Shown piece by piece: positions 22,079 through 33,134 of a stretch of 48,205 nucleotides of DNA (position 1 is its first letter; every line of letters begins with the position of its first letter). The notes beneath the pieces are model-generated. The model searched no databases, was not told where the DNA came from, and was given only the letters and a program-made list of their open reading frames with translations. The stretch is from a virus, in IMG/VR virus record IMGVR_UViG_3300025879_001397, positions 1 through 48,205 of that record. One strand, written 5' to 3'. The translations under genes and the position numbers were made by a program.

Positions 22079-22267
22079 CTTAGAAAGTTTGTACCAAGCT
22101 CTTTCGTGAAAGAAATAAAGTATCATTTTAGTAAATACCTCAACTCCACCAATGGTTAATCCCATTTCCCAACTTCCAGTTATTAGAGCTGATAGGAGCA
22201 TCGTATCCAATGTTCCTATCACTCTCCAACTTATGGTTTTTAAAAGGTGTCTTTTATAACTTACCAT
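22055..22267 (-). CDS. DUF2061 family membrane protein
   Basis: 70 aa. The pattern KRHLLKTISWRVIGTLDTML, a second hydrophobic span with GVEVFTKMILYFFHERAW, is the DUF2061 signature. In bacteria, including flavobacteria, DUF2061 genes often lie beside cysC/cysD/cysN sulfate-activation genes. Here it lies in a unit with a CysC-like gene, overlapping the nucleotidyltransferase gene by 14 nt. Molecular role unknown. Confidence 0.85.
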   Translation of the reverse strand: MVSYKRHLLKTISWRVIGTLDTMLLSALITGSWEMGLTIGGVEVFTKMILYFFHERAWYKLSKFGVEKKD

Positions 22268-22655
22268 CTTTTTTCATTTGCTCTCTGATTGAGGTTGCTG
22301 AGATATCACCTATTTCCTTTGGTGGTACGTGCTCTATAATATCGTACCCCACTCCTCTACCATAGTTGATAGATTCTATATCTGGAATAATGGTTGGTAA
22401 TACTTTACCCTCTTCAATGAGTTCTTTTAACTCACCTTCTTTCACCATTTCCAAAATTTGTTCTGCTGTCCAAGGATTCTTTTCATCTGGTTCTACATCT
22501 CTGATACCTAACCATACGTTGTATCCTTCTTTAAGTCTTTCATTGATTAACCATAGATGTCCCTTATGTAGCGGCTGCCATCTACCTGCAAAAAATGAAT
22601 ACTTCTTCTCCGTAGAGGAACTCTCTTTATCTGCTCGTGCTTTTATGTTTGCCAT
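22254..22655 (-). CDS. Small HxGH nucleotidyltransferase
   Basis: 133 aa. FFAGRWQPLHKGH (21-33) carries the HxGH motif, and ISATSIREQ (118-126) the second ISxTxxR motif, of the cytidylyl/adenylyltransferase superfamily. Length and motifs fit NadM/RibL-like nucleotidyltransferases. The segment DIESINYGRGVGYDIIEH is conserved-looking but unassigned. ATP sulfurylase of the Sat type shares this fold but is about three times larger, so a sulfate-activating role is speculation based on its place between a CysC-like and a DUF2061 gene. Confidence 0.82.
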   Translation of the reverse strand: MANIKARADKESSSTEKKYSFFAGRWQPLHKGHLWLINERLKEGYNVWLGIRDVEPDEKNPWTAEQILEMVKEGELKELIEEGKVLPTIIPDIESINYGRGVGYDIIEHVPPKEIGDISATSIREQMKKDGKL

Positions 22656-22672
22656 TGATTTAATTTAGCGGT

Positions 22673-23158
22673 TTATAACTTGTTTTCTTTTTTTAAATGA
22701 TTTACGATTTTGGTGAACGATTGTTCAGGTGTATCTTTAGTTGTATCCACATCAAAGAAATTCTTTTGAGGTGCTACATAATCTTCCGAATGGAAGTGGT
22801 CTCTTTCTCTTGGTTCAGAACAGTGTACATAGAACTCAGAAAAATCATCTAAACCAATTCTTTCTTTGAATTCTTCTCTTAACCATTCATAAGGTGCTAC
22901 TAATGATACGACTACATCACATCCTTTATTGTAAAGATACTCAGCTATTAAATGAGCGTTTCGGATGTTGTTGATTCTTCCCTGTTCGGAATAATCTTTA
23001 TTTACAGTAAGTGCTCTTAAATCATCACCATCGATGTGAAACACTTCCTTTCTCCAATTTCGTTTTTCGGATTGGAGTAGTTCTACTAACTTTTTACCTA
23101 ATACAGTTTTTCCGTGAGCCGGTTGGCCTGTAAACCAATAAATTTTACCATTTACCAT
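22673..23158 (-). CDS. cysC: Adenylylsulfate kinase-like (CysC family) P-loop kinase
   Basis: 161 aa. Walker A GQPAHGKT (11-18), HIDGDDLRAL (41-50) and SEQGRINNIRNAH (57-69) match CysC in order; the usual GLSGSGKST and FSxxDRxEN are changed. The later VHCSEPRERD is in the place of the CysC VxxPLxxCexRD motif. CysC phosphorylates APS to PAPS, the sulfate donor. Motif changes could mean a related substrate, for example a nucleotide. It heads a unit with the HxGH nucleotidyltransferase and DUF2061. Confidence 0.8.
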   Translation of the reverse strand: MVNGKIYWFTGQPAHGKTVLGKKLVELLQSEKRNWRKEVFHIDGDDLRALTVNKDYSEQGRINNIRNAHLIAEYLYNKGCDVVVSLVAPYEWLREEFKERIGLDDFSEFYVHCSEPRERDHFHSEDYVAPQKNFFDVDTTKDTPEQSFTKIVNHLKKENKL

Positions 23159-23243: not shown

Positions 23244-24455
23244 TTAGTTAATAGCATATTTAGCTTCATTATCATCCCAATCTTTTTTAGACATATAACC
23301 AAATGATTCAACACCTTTAATGGTTAACATCCTATCCGTATTTTTGTTTTTAAACATATCTGCACCACGTTTTGATGCATGTACTTTTATTAATTTTTTA
23401 CCCCTTCTAGTATCAACGTAACTAACATACTCATTGTTAGATTCATCTACCGATTCTTTCATATTTGAGGTAATTGATTCAGGTGCGTTATCTTTAACCC
23501 ATCCAAACAATTTATCTTTCCAAATTTTTTCTGGGAAAATACCACCCTTAGCTTTCTTAACAGGTAGTGAAAGGAAACCCTTTACTTTACCTTTAATCGT
23601 TCTACCCTCATCATCAGTATAGAATACAGTATTCTCAGGGTTGTTTAGAATAACATCTACTCTACCATTCATTCCTTTTGGAAGTGCTTTAGTTATCAAT
23701 CCCCATATTGTGTTAGAAGCACCTTCATGTGTTTTTAAAAGGATATCTTCAGGTACCATCCTAGCTCTACTCTTATTATTTACCATTGCGGTAACGTAGT
23801 TAGTAAGAACCCAAGTTAAGTGAATGTTTTCAGCTTTATATCCAGCGTTCTTTAACATAGGAAGTACTTTAGTAATATCAGTTACATCCTTTGCCGTAAT
23901 ATCAAATAAGATATTTGGAAGTGTTTCTGGGTTATCTTTACCAGTTAATAAGTTAGCCAATGAATTATCTTTGATACCCATTGCTTTAACTAAGATATGA
24001 AGAGCGTATACGTGGTTTGGGTTCTTTAGATTTAAATTTTGTAATTTATACCCATCACTTTCAATTTTGTTTATCAAATCTAAATCCTTTGGTTTGATAT
24101 TTTTACCATATTTTTTAATGATAGTTTTAATATCCAATTTACCCAGCCTATTTAGTACCTGAAGTTGTTTCTTCATTTCATCCACATCTCTAATTTTAAA
24201 AGATGCCGAATCTACAAAGTTTTTTATAGCGAATCCTTTACCACTACCAGCTCCACCAGCCATAAAAACGATTTGACCATATGGTTTACGATTACCATAG
24301 GTAATCAACTTTTCATTTAATATCTCTTCTGTTATTTCTTCGAAAATCATAATTTCATTTTTTCTCTTTTTCTTTCCTGCACAATGTGCCTTTTGACTAA
24401 ATCCTTTTGGGTTAGAACAATCTATTGATTTCTTATATTTCTTACTCCAAGTCAT
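23244..24455 (-). CDS. P-loop kinase with SIDCSNPKGFSQKAHC-type N-terminus
   Basis: 403 aa. Residues 1-33 hold a DCSNPKGFSQKAHCAGKKK motif known as a stand-alone tail in other phage proteins. A helix ending ILNE (45-48) resembles a capsid-targeting leader. The kinase core follows with Walker A GGAGSGKG (67-74), RDVDEMKK and later LLTGKDNPETLPNILFDITAKD, as in zeta-toxin/AAA_33 kinases. The C-terminal 70 residues (YVSYVDTRRGKKL...) form a separate module. It is the last gene of the structural block. Possibly packaged in the head (inference). Confidence 0.75.
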   Translation of the reverse strand: MTWSKKYKKSIDCSNPKGFSQKAHCAGKKKRKNEIMIFEEITEEILNEKLITYGNRKPYGQIVFMAGGAGSGKGFAIKNFVDSASFKIRDVDEMKKQLQVLNRLGKLDIKTIIKKYGKNIKPKDLDLINKIESDGYKLQNLNLKNPNHVYALHILVKAMGIKDNSLANLLTGKDNPETLPNILFDITAKDVTDITKVLPMLKNAGYKAENIHLTWVLTNYVTAMVNNKSRARMVPEDILLKTHEGASNTIWGLITKALPKGMNGRVDVILNNPENTVFYTDDEGRTIKGKVKGFLSLPVKKAKGGIFPEKIWKDKLFGWVKDNAPESITSNMKESVDESNNEYVSYVDTRRGKKLIKVHASKRGADMFKNKNTDRMLTIKGVESFGYMSKKDWDDNEAKYAIN

Positions 24456-24490: not shown

Positions 24491-26089
24491 TTATTTTGTG
24501 GTGATTTTTACACCACCTTGGAAGAATCCATTTGGTACATTCTGAATTGTTGTTGGTTTATCATTTGTATTTTTATTAAACAATACATTTGGTGTACCAC
24601 CCAATAAGCTTCTTCTATCAGTCCAATCATCTGCATTTGATGATGTGTAAATAGCATCACCAGATAAACTTTCTAAGGATGCCTTTATAACCTCAGGCTT
24701 AGAACCAGGATTTTGTTGTAATAACAAAGCAGCCATACCAGCAACTTGAGGAGCTGCCATAGATGTTCCACCAATATTACATTGACGATATGCATTATCA
24801 AAGTTATAAGGTGCATCGGCAAACTTATTTGTATTTGAAGTACAACTCATAATATTGGTTCCAGCAGCATAGATATCAACACCAGGTCCACATTCCGATG
24901 ATTGAACTTTTTGGTCTTTTGTTGCTGAGTTAGCAGTTGAATCTATATTACCAACCATTATTGCTCTATCTGAATATGGGGATGACCCTCTATGATAATA
25001 ACGAGTACCAACATTAGTTACAACAAAATTATCATAATCATCACCACCAGGTATATCTATTTTATTACCTCTATTACCAGCGGCAATAGTTACTACAATA
25101 CCAGCATCAATCAATTCCTCTACATCAGTATCAACCGATGCTATTCTTGTATTGGATACGAAATTTCTACCAGCGTTTGCACCACTATTATATACTAAAC
25201 CATAATTAGATTCTCTATAAGATGAACTACTGGTTGTATTTGAATCTGTATAGGATGTTCCTCTATAAGTTAATGAAGTTACAGAATCAAAATAAGTTCC
25301 ATATCCCCAACTCATATTTACCACAGTTGGTCTTTTATATCCAGTATCAGATTGAATTGGTTTATTGTTGTGCCAACCCTTAATGACATCAAATGCATCG
25401 GATATAGAAATACCAGTACCACTATCACTACTACCTTCCAATCCATTTACTTTTACGAAGTAAACAGCAGCACCTTTAGCTACTCCATGATTCAAGCCAG
25501 CAGCGATGCCAGCTACGTGAGTCCCATGCCCATCTAAATCTCTATTGTGATTTGCATCTTGAGTTCCACTTACCCCACTTAAATTGTACCAATCAATTGT
25601 TAGTGCTCTCTCAACACCATCAGTTCCTTTAAATTCAGGGTGGTCAAACTGTAATCCACTATCTTGAATTACAATATCCACACCACTACCATCTAAATTA
25701 TAAGTATAATCTTCGGATGTAGATGTACTACTACCATAGTTGTTAGTTTTGGATTTATGTCTTATCAATCCCCAATTTAAAAATGCACCACTATCAGATG
25801 TGGTTTTAGTAAAATTTCCAGTTTGAGTTACTCTTGGTTCGATGAAAATATCATCTCTAAATTCAGGTGGTATTTCAACAGCCATAACTCTTTCATCTTG
25901 TCTTATTAGTTCAACCTCTTCTTCTGAAAGAGTGTACCAAGTTTGACGTGGCGAGTTTGGTCTAAGATTTGGAGAATCAACTCTACGATTAGGGATATAT
26001 AGTTTACCCCCATCGTTTTCGTTTTCCATATCATCCCAAAAAGATTGATAATTTACACCTTTGTGTAATATAACGTTGTATGTTTCCAT
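24491..26089 (-). CDS. Subtilisin-like serine protease (S8), virion-associated
   Basis: 532 aa. The S8 triad is in place: Asp143 (IVIQDSG), His188 (DGHGTHVAG) and Ser443 (GGTSMAAPQVAG), with the oxyanion Asn339 (AAGN). About 130 N-terminal residues precede the catalytic domain; they may be a propeptide or virion-attachment part. No signal peptide. It stands 9 nt after the long fibre gene, so it is probably carried on the particle and used to cut fibre precursors or host surface proteins (inference). Confidence 0.92.
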   Translation of the reverse strand: METYNVILHKGVNYQSFWDDMENENDGGKLYIPNRRVDSPNLRPNSPRQTWYTLSEEEVELIRQDERVMAVEIPPEFRDDIFIEPRVTQTGNFTKTTSDSGAFLNWGLIRHKSKTNNYGSSTSTSEDYTYNLDGSGVDIVIQDSGLQFDHPEFKGTDGVERALTIDWYNLSGVSGTQDANHNRDLDGHGTHVAGIAAGLNHGVAKGAAVYFVKVNGLEGSSDSGTGISISDAFDVIKGWHNNKPIQSDTGYKRPTVVNMSWGYGTYFDSVTSLTYRGTSYTDSNTTSSSSYRESNYGLVYNSGANAGRNFVSNTRIASVDTDVEELIDAGIVVTIAAGNRGNKIDIPGGDDYDNFVVTNVGTRYYHRGSSPYSDRAIMVGNIDSTANSATKDQKVQSSECGPGVDIYAAGTNIMSCTSNTNKFADAPYNFDNAYRQCNIGGTSMAAPQVAGMAALLLQQNPGSKPEVIKASLESLSGDAIYTSSNADDWTDRRSLLGGTPNVLFNKNTNDKPTTIQNVPNGFFQGGVKITTK

Positions 26090-28803: not shown

Positions 28804-29217
28804 TTACAATCTACCCCACTCCGAAATACTTTCTTTGAGTGGTTTCATACCACCCTTAACTCTGAGTGTATTCAATTGTTTAATTACCTCTTTTTGTTTT
28901 TGAGAGTTCGGTATTGTTTTCAAAGCTTGAGTCATTAACTTATACATCTCAGCTTTCTCAGATGATGATAATGATTCGTTCATCTCTCTAGCATACATCT
29001 TCATCTTAACATCCATATCAACAAACCTCACTTTGATGTTTTGTTGTTTGTAGAAACGATTAAGTGTTCTTACCAAATCACTAATTACCGATTTTACCTT
29101 CTCTTTATCATTCTTATCCGTAACCCAAAAGAACTCTTGTGGAAAGAGTTCTCTAACGATGTTTGCAATCGATATGGTTAGGGATGATTCGTTTAATATA
29201 TCAGTTAGCTTAATCAT
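28804..29217 (-). CDS. Hypothetical protein with (L/I)xNE leader, 137 aa
   Basis: Start chosen at 29217 (MIKLTDILNESSL) because it sits 1 nt after the upstream stop. The N-terminus, a short amphipathic helix ending ILNE followed by S, has the form of a T4 capsid-targeting sequence cut after Glu. An internal REMNESLSSSE and a C-terminal KESISEWGRL repeat the pattern. The rest is basic helices (KEKVKSVISDLVRTLNRFYK). Confidence 0.7.
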   Translation of the reverse strand: MIKLTDILNESSLTISIANIVRELFPQEFFWVTDKNDKEKVKSVISDLVRTLNRFYKQQNIKVRFVDMDVKMKMYAREMNESLSSSEKAEMYKLMTQALKTIPNSQKQKEVIKQLNTLRVKGGMKPLKESISEWGRL

Positions 29218-29218
29218 A

Positions 29219-31081
29219 TTAGTTGATGTATGCATTTAACTCATATCCGTTCTTCATTCCGTAAACCTGAATGTGTAACATCTTTCTTTGTGGTTTACCA
29301 TTTTTAAGAAGTTCTAACGATACTCTTGTAGTTTTACCCACCGATGGTCTCTTTGAGTTCATTCCAACTTTGGTGAACATCTCATCATCCTCTATTTCGT
29401 ATCCTTTCTTTTTAGCGTATACTTCTGCTGCCTCAATTGCATGAGTGTAAGATTTGTGATACACATCATCCGATTCGTTTACTGATTCATATTTAATCAT
29501 ATCAGTATTAAACTTTTCAAAATTCTTCTTTGCCCATTTTACGGCAGATTCGTAAGAATTAAATTTAATTCTGTCTTGTTTGAATCCTTTTTTCTTGTTT
29601 AAGAAATCAATGTAAACTTTTTCTTCGTTTACTAATTCAAACAGTTCATCTCTTGTAAGTTTTCTACCGAATGCCTTTTCAAATGCTTTAATCATTTTTA
29701 CTTCAGTACTAGCATTTCTTCCAAGTAGTTTTAAAACTCTTTTTAATTCATCTTCAGAAAAATTATAGTTTACTTTTTCTTCGTTTACTGATTCATTTAC
29801 CGAATATGAAAGGAATCCTCTATCACCAACGTTTACTTTAATTTTACCCTTAGATAGTTTTTCAACTTCTCTTTTAGTTTTCTGTGGGTCTTGATGTGCA
29901 TGATAAAAGTTATTCTTAATCTTAGAAGATGAACCAGGTTTTTGATTAAAGTTTTTTACCAAATCACCACCATCATACCCAACTCCACCAATATTAACTT
30001 TATTATGACCAGAGTTATAATAAACATCATATTTTGGCTTAGCATCTAATATTACCTGTGTAAGGTATTTGTAATCTGCCTTTTCGTTTAATGATTCATT
30101 AAATCCTTCAATATCCCATTGAATTCTTTGTAATGGATTATCACCTCTAAAGTTTTTCTTTACCCAATCAATAAGTCCAGGTTCATTCTTAGCATTTTGA
30201 GCCATATCGAATGCGTTTCTAGCACCCCCATTACTTGCCATACTATCCAACCATTGTTCATATTTCGTTTGAGTCCATCTTACTTTCTTAACTACTTTCT
30301 TATGTGGACCATCTCCTAATTTTGAAGTAGCTGCAGCGTAAGAACCTGGAAGGAATACACCAACATCCTTACCATTACCATATTTTATTTTTTTTCTGAA
30401 TAACCTTAGTGAATATTCTCCACTTTCTTTTTGTTTAGGTTTTGAAACTTCGCCTTGTCTTTTACCTAATTCAATTTTCTTTTCTTCAGCAGTTTTGGGA
30501 TTTATTTCAAAATGTAAAGATTTTACTAAATCACCAATACCATCAAATTTACCTTCGTTTACTGATTCATCAATTTCAAATTTAGAATATTTGTTTAAAT
30601 CATTTAAACTTTTTAATTCAACTCGTTTACCGTTTGAATCCAATCCATAGATAGTAGCGGTATATTTACCCATTCCATCGGAACGTTTACCTTTTAGTTT
30701 TTGTTTTAATTCAGCACCAGCTCTTCGTTTGTTGATAGATGAATTAAATTCGTTTACTGATTCTAACTCAACACCTTCATATATTGATTTAAGATATTTA
30801 AGGAAGTCTTTATCACTCTTCATATCTCTAAAATCACTATTTGAAAATACTTTCTTTATAAAATCCCTAATATCTTTAGAACTTTGCTTGATTAAATCAA
30901 GTTCAGCTCCTAAACTTTCACTAACTTCATCTATGATTTTAACTGGAACTAAGTGTGTACCAATTTTAGAATCGTATGCCATTATGTAATGAATACCATC
31001 CTTACCCATAAGTTTGAAATCCTTATGTTTCTTATTCCACTCTTTTTTAGTGATTGTATGTTTAATCTTAGGTTTAGCCAT
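29219..31081 (-). CDS. Putative multi-segment polyprotein with ESVNE repeats, 620 aa
   Basis: Six internal sites break the chain: ESVNE 107-111, ESVNE 172-176, ESLNE 329-333, SVNESVNE 427-434, ELVNE 482-486 and ESVNE 532-536. Cutting after the last Glu of each would yield seven pieces of about 111, 65, 157, 101, 52, 50 and 84 residues. Most pieces are Lys-rich and start just after the site. No enzymatic family is recognised. T4 prohead protease gp21 cleaves after Glu in (L/I)-x-E, so these could be internal head proteins made as one chain. An alternative is a repeat-linked structural protein that is never cut. Neighbours on both sides carry single similar leaders. Confidence 0.72.
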   Translation of the reverse strand: MAKPKIKHTITKKEWNKKHKDFKLMGKDGIHYIMAYDSKIGTHLVPVKIIDEVSESLGAELDLIKQSSKDIRDFIKKVFSNSDFRDMKSDKDFLKYLKSIYEGVELESVNEFNSSINKRRAGAELKQKLKGKRSDGMGKYTATIYGLDSNGKRVELKSLNDLNKYSKFEIDESVNEGKFDGIGDLVKSLHFEINPKTAEEKKIELGKRQGEVSKPKQKESGEYSLRLFRKKIKYGNGKDVGVFLPGSYAAATSKLGDGPHKKVVKKVRWTQTKYEQWLDSMASNGGARNAFDMAQNAKNEPGLIDWVKKNFRGDNPLQRIQWDIEGFNESLNEKADYKYLTQVILDAKPKYDVYYNSGHNKVNIGGVGYDGGDLVKNFNQKPGSSSKIKNNFYHAHQDPQKTKREVEKLSKGKIKVNVGDRGFLSYSVNESVNEEKVNYNFSEDELKRVLKLLGRNASTEVKMIKAFEKAFGRKLTRDELFELVNEEKVYIDFLNKKKGFKQDRIKFNSYESAVKWAKKNFEKFNTDMIKYESVNESDDVYHKSYTHAIEAAEVYAKKKGYEIEDDEMFTKVGMNSKRPSVGKTTRVSLELLKNGKPQRKMLHIQVYGMKNGYELNAYIN

Positions 31082-31082
31082 C

Positions 31083-31370
31083 TTATTTTAATTTGTTTGC
31101 TATTGAATATAAATCAAATTTGAATCCCATTCCAGCTCCACTATATGAGTGGTCTACATCAATAGGTAGTTTTAGTTTCTTTTCTAATGCCTTTCCAACA
31201 ATAACACCAATCATATCATCACCAGCTCCTCTAGCTTCAATTGCATTTTGTAATTCATCCAAATCCTTAGATGTTTTAGCAATTGCCGCTAAATGAACAT
31301 CACCCTTTGAAGGCATAATTGTGAAATTAACTGAGAATTTCTTACCACCTGATTTAATATCTATCTTCAT
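31083..31370 (-). CDS. Hypothetical protein, 95 aa
   Basis: Alpha/beta protein (MKIDIKSGGKKFSVNFTIMP ... GMGFKFDLYSIANKLK) of unknown family. A central helix rich in Asp/Glu (KDLDELQNAIEARG) joins two strand pairs. It lies between the repeat polyprotein and the LLSEA-leader protein. Confidence 0.66.
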   Translation of the reverse strand: MKIDIKSGGKKFSVNFTIMPSKGDVHLAAIAKTSKDLDELQNAIEARGAGDDMIGVIVGKALEKKLKLPIDVDHSYSGAGMGFKFDLYSIANKLK

Positions 31371-31388
31371 ATCGTTTTATTTAATAAT

Positions 31389-31640
31389 TTAGGATACATC
31401 CATTGCATCATTATGAGTAAAGGTAATACCCTTCTTCTTCAAAGTTTTAGCAAGCTTTTCCATATCATCATAATCGTATCTATATGGTAACTCAATACCA
31501 TATCTATCTTCAAAATCCGGTTTGTACATCTTCTTACCATCCACAACTATCTTATATAGTTTACCACTACGGTCTAAATAAGTTGCATCAATCTTCTTTG
31601 GATTTTTTGCTTCTGAAAGTAATTCTTTTAGTTTAATCAT
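31389..31640 (-). CDS. Small protein with LLSE leader, 83 aa
   Basis: Begins MIKLKELLSEAKNPKKIDAT, a leader-like helix ending LLSE then Ala. The rest is basic (YLDRSGKLYKIVVDGKKMYK ... KTLKKKGITF). One of several genes here with this type of start, consistent with packaged internal proteins (inference). Confidence 0.68.
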   Translation of the reverse strand: MIKLKELLSEAKNPKKIDATYLDRSGKLYKIVVDGKKMYKPDFEDRYGIELPYRYDYDDMEKLAKTLKKKGITFTHNDAMDVS

Positions 31641-31641
31641 A

Positions 31642-32178
31642 TTATTTGTGTTTGATGTGTTGTACTCTCCACTTCACATCCTTTGTTCTCAACATTTTCT
31701 TTACAGCATCCACATTCTTTAATGAATCATCTGCAAAGTAAACATCATCATATCCTTCGTTATCAATCTTATCCTCAATCCAATCTGCTTTTGCCTTTGG
31801 ATTATTGTTTTGTAATCCAGTTACAGGTATTTTTTGATTGATACCAATATCTTTTAAGTATTTTGCTACGTGCTTATCTACTGCTTGTGGTCTTGCCGTT
31901 AGAATGAATACACCATCACCTCTATTTTTCTGAATGATTCTCTTTAATACTTTGGTGATTCGTTTCAACTCTTGTGGTTCTTGAACCGAGTAGAAATCTC
32001 TGAAATCATACTCTTCACCTGGCTTCTCATTATAAACTGCAAATTCGGCTGGTGTTAGTCTCTTTTCTTTACCATTAGGTTGTTTAACGTAGATATATGA
32101 TTTAGTAAGAACCAACGTTTCATCAAAATCAAACACTCTTAGTTTTTTTGATTCGGAGAATAAGCTTCGTGCTATCAT
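31642..32178 (-). CDS. HAD-superfamily phosphatase with leader
   Basis: 178 aa from the ATG at 32178. The start at 32202 would lie at the transcription start implied by the promoter at 32204-32235. After MIARSLFSES comes the HAD motif I (RVFDFDETLVLT, DxDxT), motif II FILTARP, a Lys in NPKAKADWI and motif IV YFADDSLKN. It is closest in outline to the phosphatase part of phage polynucleotide kinases/HAD hydrolases. The FSE|S leader again looks like a capsid-targeting cut site. Confidence 0.82.
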   Translation of the reverse strand: MIARSLFSESKKLRVFDFDETLVLTKSYIYVKQPNGKEKRLTPAEFAVYNEKPGEEYDFRDFYSVQEPQELKRITKVLKRIIQKNRGDGVFILTARPQAVDKHVAKYLKDIGINQKIPVTGLQNNNPKAKADWIEDKIDNEGYDDVYFADDSLKNVDAVKKMLRTKDVKWRVQHIKHK

Positions 32179-32203
32179 ATCTTCTTGCTCTTTTATCATC
32201 ATG

Positions 32204-32235
32204 CTAATATACGATTTTTATACCTAATATCCAAA
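32204..32235 (-). promoter_or_regulatory. Bacteroidota-type promoter (virion-related unit)
   Basis: Minus strand: TTTG (32235-32232), 20 bp, TATATTAG (32211-32204). It reads into the HAD, polyprotein, fibre and protease genes. Confidence 0.8.
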
Positions 32236-32562
32236 TTATTTAGAGTTAGAATTCAAAATTTGATTGTTTAATTCCAACAATCTTCGATTCTCCATCTCTA
32301 AATACTTTACTTTGATTGTCAACTCAGCAACATCCTTAGTTAGTTCCAATATCTTCTCTCTAAGTTCATCCTTTTCTTTTGAACTTTGTTGAAGTAATGA
32401 TTCTAATCTATCGATTCTCTTAGCACAATCATCTTTGATATAATCCTCCTCATCCTTTTTATCTTGCGCACGCTTCTCATAGTATCTCCAAGCCCCAGCG
32501 GACCCCAATACTGTGATAAGTGTAATAATTACTGCGTAGATTGATTCTGGATTCATTATCAT
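32236..32562 (-). CDS. Membrane-anchored coiled-coil protein, 108 aa
   Basis: N-terminal transmembrane helix (about 7-24, SIYAVIITLITVLGSAGAW) followed by a long coiled coil (KRIDRLESLLQQSSKEKDEL ... KYLEMENRRLLELNNQI). The layout is that of an i-spanin or holin-associated protein. It overlaps the upstream coiled-coil gene by 4 nt, downstream of the holin-like gene. Confidence 0.72.
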   Translation of the reverse strand: MIMNPESIYAVIITLITVLGSAGAWRYYEKRAQDKKDEEDYIKDDCAKRIDRLESLLQQSSKEKDELREKILELTKDVAELTIKVKYLEMENRRLLELNNQILNSNSK

Positions 32563-33134
32563 TTTTTGTTTTGTAAGATACTATCTGATTTTTCCATCTC
32601 AGCTCTAAGGTAGTGTTTAGCACCAACTATATAATCTTTTGCCTTTACGATTTTAGTTTGCCACCAATGTGGTAAATCTATCTCAGCGTTCATTTCATCA
32701 AATTCAGCCATCATTTCACCCAATTCTTCAGCATATCTTTCAATAATACTCAAATCAGCTCTTAACATACCTGGCTCATTATCTTGATGTCCTAAATCTA
32801 CATCTTCGAAAACGGATGTATCTAACTCAGTATCGGTTGACATCTGAGATACATACTTATCTTCCATATCCATTAACTGAGATAGATTCTTTTGTCTATC
32901 TTTTATTTTCTTAGTCAAATCCTTTAATACTTTAAGAATTTGCTCTTTTTTCTTTGGGTCTTTTTCTGTTTTATAAGGTTGTACAGCCTTTTTTCTATCA
33001 GCTTCCAACTTTGCGATTTCTTTTTTAACCGCTTCTATTTTCAGAAATAACTTAGGTATTCCTTCGTTGATTAATTGCTCAACAGTGAACCTTCCTTCGT
33101 ATTTTTCAACCAAATGTTCTTCTAATAATTTCAT
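32559..33134 (-). CDS. Coiled-coil protein with LINE leader, 191 aa
   Basis: Charged helices (KLFLKIEAVKKEIAKLEADR, KKKEQILKVLKDLTKKIKDR) suggest a structural or scaffolding coiled coil. The N-terminus ...FTVEQLINEGIPK has another (L/I)NE site near residue 25. It precedes the membrane coiled-coil gene by a 4-nt overlap. Confidence 0.7.
   Translation of the reverse strand: MKLLEEHLVEKYEGRFTVEQLINEGIPKLFLKIEAVKKEIAKLEADRKKAVQPYKTEKDPKKKEQILKVLKDLTKKIKDRQKNLSQLMDMEDKYVSQMSTDTELDTSVFEDVDLGHQDNEPGMLRADLSIIERYAEELGEMMAEFDEMNAEIDLPHWWQTKIVKAKDYIVGAKHYLRAEMEKSDSILQNKK

Follow-up and report, generated by a model that had tools for sequence, protein, structure and literature searches.

Leaders resembling T4 capsid targeting sequences and a predicted cargo polyprotein in an uncultured T4-like jumbo phage lineage

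Introduction

Why should neighbouring phage genes with unrelated bodies begin with one type of short leader? The question is raised by a DNA stretch of 48,205 nt from an uncultured virus (IMG/VR record IMGVR_UViG_3300025879_001397, positions 1 to 48,205; hereafter, the window), where several genes carry, at or close to the start, a segment that ends in a hydrophobic residue, any residue and glutamate (phi-x-E). All features of the window described below are on the minus strand, and a slash in a sequence marks the predicted cut after the glutamate. An earlier reading, made from the sequence alone, had taken these segments for capsid-targeting leaders by which enzymes might be packed in the head and delivered with the DNA.

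In phage T4 the internal proteins IPI-III and Alt carry a capsid targeting sequence (Mullaney and Black 1996, as cited in PMC9391042, PMC9026906 and PMC5694885); the T4 protease gp21 cleaves after L/I-x-E (PMC9026906). We propose that in the lineage of the window, an uncultured one of jumbo T4-like phages, T4-type capsid targeting and gp21-type cleavage were extended to modular cargo polyproteins, enzymes included; we put the probability of this reading at about 0.8.

Results

Leaders in the window

All five segments singled out in the sequence-only reading are found in the window, with L, I or F at position P3 in each, and the leaders are confirmed as real. MIKLTDILNE/ (29188..29217), followed by SS, starts at an in-frame ATG inside the open reading frame (ORF) 28804-29235; MIKLKELLSE/ (31611..31640), followed by AK, opens the 31389-31640 protein; MIARSLFSE/ (32152..32178), followed by SK, starts at an internal ATG of ORF 31642-32202 and belongs to a HAD phosphatase. 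The leader-like stretch MIFEEITEEILNE/ (24312..24350; EEITEEILNE/KL) stands before a P-loop kinase, and a longer leader ending in TVEQLINE/, then GI (33063..33134), belongs to ORF 32559-33134. One leader type is thus combined with unrelated bodies: the 28804 and 31389 proteins are absent from each other's lists in an all-against-all BLASTp comparison, the HAD protein is absent from both lists, and the three proteins differ in Pfam and PHROG results.

The phi-x-E motif alone proves nothing in the window. A motif search against a shuffled background, suggested earlier as a check, gave no excess: the loose expression, phi-x-E within the first 22 residues of window N-termini, was found six times versus 2.8 expected, with a shuffle maximum of seven. 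As this result was not significant, the expression was replaced by a profile trained outside the window, on eight leaders located near protease, portal and capsid genes of related contigs; the window contributed none. A scan of every gene with alternative starts produced only two matches in the window, at 29217 (23.2 bits) and 31640 (15.8 bits), where the expectation for scores of at least 12 bits is 0.01; among 3161 internal methionines taken as control, one reached that threshold. Because the training leaders were picked by eye, independence can be claimed for the window matches but not for those in the training contigs.

In T4 IPIII, residues 4 and 7 matter for targeting, residues 8 and 10 for processing (PMC9026906). 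The IPIII N-terminus, MKTYQEFIAE, shares the hydrophobic residues 4, 7 and 8 and Glu 10 with both MIKLTDILNE and MIKLKELLSE; in MIARSLFSE and MIFEEITEEILNE only the last three of these four positions fit, counting back from Glu. Similar-looking N-termini are present in T4 Alt (MELITELFDE) and gp24 (MAKINELLRE).

Protease, capsid and head-cluster leaders of the relatives

The record is a 48-kb fragment in whose 48,205 bases no PF07068 match to a capsid gene was found, so the protease and capsid genes were deduced from relatives. A search with the HAD and polyprotein genes of the window retrieved 29 loci, some of them on contigs of 252, 271, 276, 213 and 83 kb. A gp23-type capsid gene was found in 6 of the 15 contigs searched (PF07068, 1e-76 to 1e-80) and a gp21-type protease in all five capsid-gene contigs tested for it (phrog_207, 1e-50 to 1e-54). 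The two genes are encoded on related contigs of 27-276 kb; the pair was observed in five close relatives and in every leader-bearing cultured phage. Flavobacterium phage immuto, Microcystis phage Mel-JY01 and an uncultured 484-kb phage have capsid proteins that share ~50% identity with that of the relatives. Three of the seven genome-collection matches are contigs of one Flavobacteriales metagenome bin, which makes a Bacteroidota host likely.

When the capsid propeptides were aligned with T4 gp23, the T4 site FLTE/A corresponded to LLDE/A in the relatives, LVKE/A in G013, IVSE/A in immuto and LISE/A in Mel-JY01. Furthermore, genes that the relatives keep between the protease and the scaffold and capsid genes carry the leaders MIKLTDLLQE, MIKLTQLMNE/S, MKLKDLLNE/S, MIKLKDILTE, MKLTDILKE/S and MKLLDILKE. 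In G002, G005 and G010, 9 of 14 strong leaders fall into the head cluster or into the HAD cluster equivalent to that of the window, 88 of 989 genes (p = 3e-7, a value that includes part of the training set and regions drawn after the data were seen).

A predicted polyprotein and its mobile modules

While the leaders named in the sequence-only reading stood, it overlooked the strongest single feature of its interval, a 620-aa protein with repeated sites located between two leader carriers (29219..31081). We predict this protein to be a polyprotein of about eight modules between phi-[NS]-E sites: [VIL]NE occurs seven times versus 0.63 expected, and S[VIL]NE six times versus 0.04 expected (2000 shuffles). 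The sites are ESVNE/ at residues 107-111 (30749..30763) and 172-176 (30554..30568), ESLNE/ at residues 329-333 (30083..30097), a double site SVNE/SVNE/ at residues 427-434 (29780..29803) ahead of module EKVNYNFSEDEL, ELVNE/ at residues 482-486 (29624..29638), and ESVNE/ at residues 532-536 (29474..29488) ahead of the last module, SDDVYHKSYTHAIEAAEVYAKKKGYEI.

Modules of the 620-aa protein recur in other chains of the relatives, either behind a leader or behind a spacer. Module EKVNYNFSEDEL is preceded by SVNE/ or SINE/ in five other proteins (L024, L025, L026, G013 and G014). The last module makes a stand-alone 108-aa protein, MITLKSILEDAKINTKIDE/ANDTYFKSFTDA, in L018; it follows an internal MIKLTDLMSE/ in a chain of G005, and EMDE/ in Methylophilales phage Melnitz-2. 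The segment EPEIITQLRD has a gene of its own behind MIRLTEILNE/ in G002; in G005 and G013 it is part of a polyprotein, where SKLTE/ and FVNE/, respectively, precede it. Across 486 alignments of proteins with different upstream context (pairs that are not independent of each other), a strict site was situated at the shared module boundary in 22% of cases versus 6.1% in the interior; for a loose site the values were 38% and 14.5%.

The same exchange is visible around the window proteins that carry leaders. A further possible site, ESISE/ (28819-28833), lies close to the C-terminus of the predicted mature product of the 28804 gene (SSLTISIANIVRELF..., 28804..29187). Its G002 orthologue (G002_210196) keeps MIKLTDILNE/; between this leader and the same body lies the additional module CWKGYKQIG...PNCVPE, with SINE/ as a second site at the new junction, and TLNE/ with a further module is found where the window has ESISE/. 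In L014, this body is preceded by ESVNE/. As to ORF 32559-33134, the C-terminal half of its coiled body (GIPKLFLKIEAVKK..., 32559..33062), from DVDLGHQ on, is a module that follows SVNE/ in a G014 polyprotein. Mean identity among orthologues is 48% in the leader versus 70% in the body, with the break at the Glu; the family keeps phi-x-E/GIPKL behind a variable leader, shifted by one residue in L015 (LVE/AGIPKL). We found no account of such cargo polyproteins in the open-licence literature.

A module with and without the protease

Phages that share one module and differ in the protease make a natural control. Where the phrog_207 protease is absent, the module [AE]YQGR.V.LNKP opens as MAKYQGR (Kolga), MAKYKGR (HTVC111P and HTVC026P) or MATYKGK (CRP-902). 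In protease-bearing phages the same module lies behind a site: LTE/AEYQGK (C48C1), LEE/AEFQGK (HTVC008M), MME/SEYQGK (Melnitz-2) and LDE/GEYRGK (immuto); in the relative L025 it lies behind MNE/AEYQGR. The predicted cut would leave AEYQGR, nearly the same N-terminus as that of the bare gene once Met is removed (AKYQGR). Roseobacter phage CRP-6, the fifth phage that lacks the protease, has a truncated module with LPLEE before it and is therefore not a clean case.

In CRP-6 (L106:559-1248) a domain resembling, by eye, another prohead protease type is joined to the LNKP...KKF.VYVKD module, which suggests a link to the head outside T4-like phages. The DLRKWF module was considered as a second control; its three matches, all in Synechococcus phages, open with MKEDLRKWFGKGK or follow VMKEDLRDW, neither repeating nor contradicting the pattern cleanly.

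Enzymes behind the leaders

That a HAD phosphatase and a P-loop kinase are among the carriers, as had been claimed, was borne out by profile matches. The phosphatase body (31642..32151) contains motifs VFDFDET, ILTAR and ADDS and matches PF11019 (5.7e-9) and phrog_415, polynucleotide kinase (1.7e-7); it had no direct match in the phage collection. Foldseek matches of its structural model were weak, none at 0.001 or better, one of them being the T4 Pnkp 3' phosphatase; the enzyme class therefore rests on motifs and profiles. In an alignment of 11 sequences the junction Glu is nearly invariant. Most relatives read MIARSLF[TV]E/S; L018 reads MIKLKDMISRSLFVE/SKKLRVFDFDDT, with S after the junction, and L019 reads MIKLKTILRE/GKTVSIFDFDDT, with G there, so that a canonical leader is found on the same enzyme. 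The HAD gene at L018:10004-10550, with a near-canonical long leader, is split in two reading frames, by a frameshift or a sequencing error.

The zeta-toxin-like P-loop kinase of ORF 23244-24455 has its body at 23244..24311 (GGAGSGKG; PF06414, 2.4e-5; phrog_5268, 1.8e-41), with a possible later site SVDE/. The L015 and L016 proteins start at the Met of the leader (MIYEEITEDILNE/). The leader reads MKSFKQFTESTLTE/ALITFGG in the KP27 orthologue, MKSFKDFVSLDE/ALITFGG in Lw1, MTLKSFKEFITLDE/A in Mm5, MKSFIEYINLDE/A in POP12 and MDNILNE/KLI in jumbo phage SCTP-2; in all five the junction Glu, within L-[DT]-E/A or ILNE/K, aligns with that of the window ILNE/K. The gene adjoins hoc or another outer-capsid gene in Lw1, KP27, Mm5 and POP12. 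It is a single gene in most phages; in L021 the kinase is embedded in an 811-residue chain.

The kinase leaders of Straboviridae resemble that of T4 IPI, MKTFKEFTSTTTPVSTITE/A. All zeta-like Straboviridae copies inspected have a T4-internal-protein-like leader, which for EniLVp02 holds only with an internal Met as start (MNFLNFSEQYDQYLEE/A); these proteins are probably unrecognised internal head proteins. Zeta-like proteins occur in more than 200 phage records, mostly annotated as hypothetical, such as L091:1474-2307 (Lw1) and L092:1468-2307 (KP27). Published virion proteomes were considered as a test of kinase packaging and set aside: Table 1 for Morganella phage MP1 lists no kinase of this family, but the kinase matches gave no sign that MP1 has the gene; the mass-spectrometry data for Klebsiella jiaodaviruses concern a different genus.

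Ahead of its leader the window kinase has an extra N-terminal Cys module (SIDCSNPKGFSQKAHC; 24351..24455). The same 30 residues (SIDCSNPKGFSQKAHCAGKKK) open a protein in L005 (L005:4279-4815) that is otherwise unrelated, thus N-terminal modules are exchanged besides leaders.

Further enzymes appear in the head clusters of relatives. A predicted chain of 1735 residues, starting with MNKLSKFLVE/S, combines NMN-adenylyltransferase-like, HD and CCA tRNA nucleotidyltransferase (5e-45) domains with sites between them; it is encoded at L079:1-3510 and L078:18306-20000, shortly before the terminase gene. One could speculate that such a toolkit for RNA ends and nicotinamide adenine dinucleotide (NAD) would work against host defences, in the manner of T4 internal proteins (PMC12373910).

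Other genes of the clusters

The body of the 83-aa leader protein (31389..31610) has relatives in L019 and in phage immuto. APS-kinase-like and nucleotidyltransferase-like genes without leaders (window 22254-23158) follow the kinase and are kept beside the cluster in relatives. Small basic proteins that resemble one another and ribosomal protein bS21 are encoded near leader genes, within the head cluster or adjacent to the HAD cluster (L023:11003-11269, L002:11852-12112 and L090:22183-22410); the Mel-JY01 copy is annotated RpsU.

Discussion

In the mechanism that we propose, N-terminal propeptides of 9-24 residues would draw proteins into the prohead core, where a gp21-type prohead protease would remove the leader after (L/I/V/F)-x-E. 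The same cutting site would be reused as a spacer, so that the modules of the 620-aa polyprotein could be released inside the prohead. Modules and enzymes (the HAD phosphatase and the zeta-like kinase; in relatives also the NMN-adenylyltransferase-like, HD and tRNA-nucleotidyltransferase domains) would shift between single leader genes and polyproteins. Like the T4 internal proteins and Alt, the resulting proteins would enter the head together with the DNA and be ejected into the cell when the phage infects its host.

How much of the capsid-targeting interpretation offered earlier is retained? Targeting to the capsid and cleavage by a T4-type protease appear well supported by comparative evidence: the protease and capsid genes of the relatives, the capsid motif, the leaders of head-cluster and orthologous genes, the module boundaries, and the lack of the leader where the protease is lacking. 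Actual presence in the virion, cleavage and delivery with the DNA would follow by analogy with T4.

Several observations weigh against this interpretation. The protease and the capsid protein are ascribed to the phage from its relatives and not from the window fragment itself. The phi-x-E motif is short and common in Glu-rich proteins, and three of the five leaders (MIARSLFSE/, EEILNE/ and EQLINE/) fall below score when taken alone, with support from orthologues. Five of the 14 strong leaders lie outside both the head and the HAD cluster, some on proteins not expected in heads. Counted by family, no more than 30 of 161 (14 with the strict site) have the shared site in half or more of their pairs. 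Some modules are also present in phages without this protease; the modules are therefore not exclusive to the mechanism.

Among other explanations, the one that fares best, though we consider it improbable, is that leader and spacers are scaffold-binding tags left uncut, or core elements degraded like T4 gp22 and gp67, and that the proteins are assembly factors. Several carriers are indeed coiled or of low complexity and are located in the head cluster, and in T4 the core proteins gp22, gp67 and gp68 likewise undergo cleavage at many positions and for the most part disappear (PMC9026906). However, a throw-away scaffold would have no need of intact enzyme folds that keep their active-site motifs, such as some carriers possess; basic, conserved modules are numerous, and one and the same module is found on its own, with no site, in protease-less phages.

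Could the shared N-termini be a mosaic residue of recombination at 5'-ends, with no targeting, and the phi-x-E sites a chance outcome in Glu-rich proteins? The insignificance of the loose expression in the window and the movement of 30-residue N-terminal modules such as SIDCSNPKGFSQKAHC between genes would agree with it; however, we find it very unlikely given the strict profile with its control counts, the expectation of 0.04 for S[VIL]NE, the one pattern kept by differently spelled leaders in distant phages, and the way in which the leader depends on whether the protease is present. Least credible of all is a tag for another process, such as association with a membrane or cleavage by a different protease in the infected cell: the leader is predicted to be a short amphipathic helix (residues 2-15, low confidence) and a gene for a subtilisin-like protease lies close by (24491-26089), but the motif equals the capsid propeptide and T4 gp21 sites and the leaders are concentrated in the prohead gene cluster.

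Returning to targeting followed by cleavage, one could go further and speculate that the prohead protease is the processing enzyme of a modular cargo polyprotein system in this jumbo lineage, and partly in marine T4-like phages generally. Modules and enzymes that repair nucleic-acid ends and NAD (the kinase, the polynucleotide-kinase-like phosphatase and the tRNA-nucleotidyltransferase, HD and NMN-adenylyltransferase domains) would then be inserted behind a leader or an ESVNE spacer, be matured in the head and reach the host before phage gene expression, and could counter tRNA-cutting or NAD-depleting defences. We regard this extension as tentative, with the odds somewhat against it.

The leaders and sites give a sequence rule that predicts head cargo, including enzymes, among unassigned genes of large T4-like phages, and they indicate a variant of the T4 system whose head protease would free several cargo pieces from one chain. 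The question of injection by jumbo phages becomes directly testable in cultured relatives; the modules could also serve as plug-in tags that load proteins into phage heads.

Comparison with known systems

The closest likeness is to T4 IPI-III and Alt: an N-terminal leader of ~10-20 residues with the same hydrophobic pattern and an L/I-x-E end is joined, as one type, to bodies that are not related, and one of the carriers, Alt, is an enzyme. A protease of gp21 type and a capsid of gp23 type are also common to T4 and the relatives of the window phage. The wording of the leader (MIKL..LLNE) is different, however, as is the cargo, with a HAD phosphatase, a zeta-like kinase and nucleotidyltransferases; also, there are polyproteins with repeated sites. 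The zeta-like proteins of phrog_5268 in Pseudotevenvirus and Slopekvirus (KP27, Lw1) are orthologous kinases with a T4-internal-protein-like leader at the aligned residue and a gene beside hoc; they are annotated only as hypothetical or as zeta toxin, and are encoded there by a single gene, not within a polyprotein.

T4 gp22, gp67 and gp68 similarly have several phi-x-E sites per chain, but the pieces described here are no scaffold debris: they are distinct and conserved, and are also found as genes of their own. With the ejection proteins of phiKZ, 201phi2-1 and SPN3US the system has in common large heads, many cleaved inner proteins and a gp21 relative that cuts after Glu. The sites in those phages are S/A-x-E (phiKZ) and A-x-E (SPN3US), often with long propeptides; here, the leaders are short, and a large hydrophobic residue (L, I, V, M or F), rather than S or A, occupies P3 at the leaders as well as at the capsid site.

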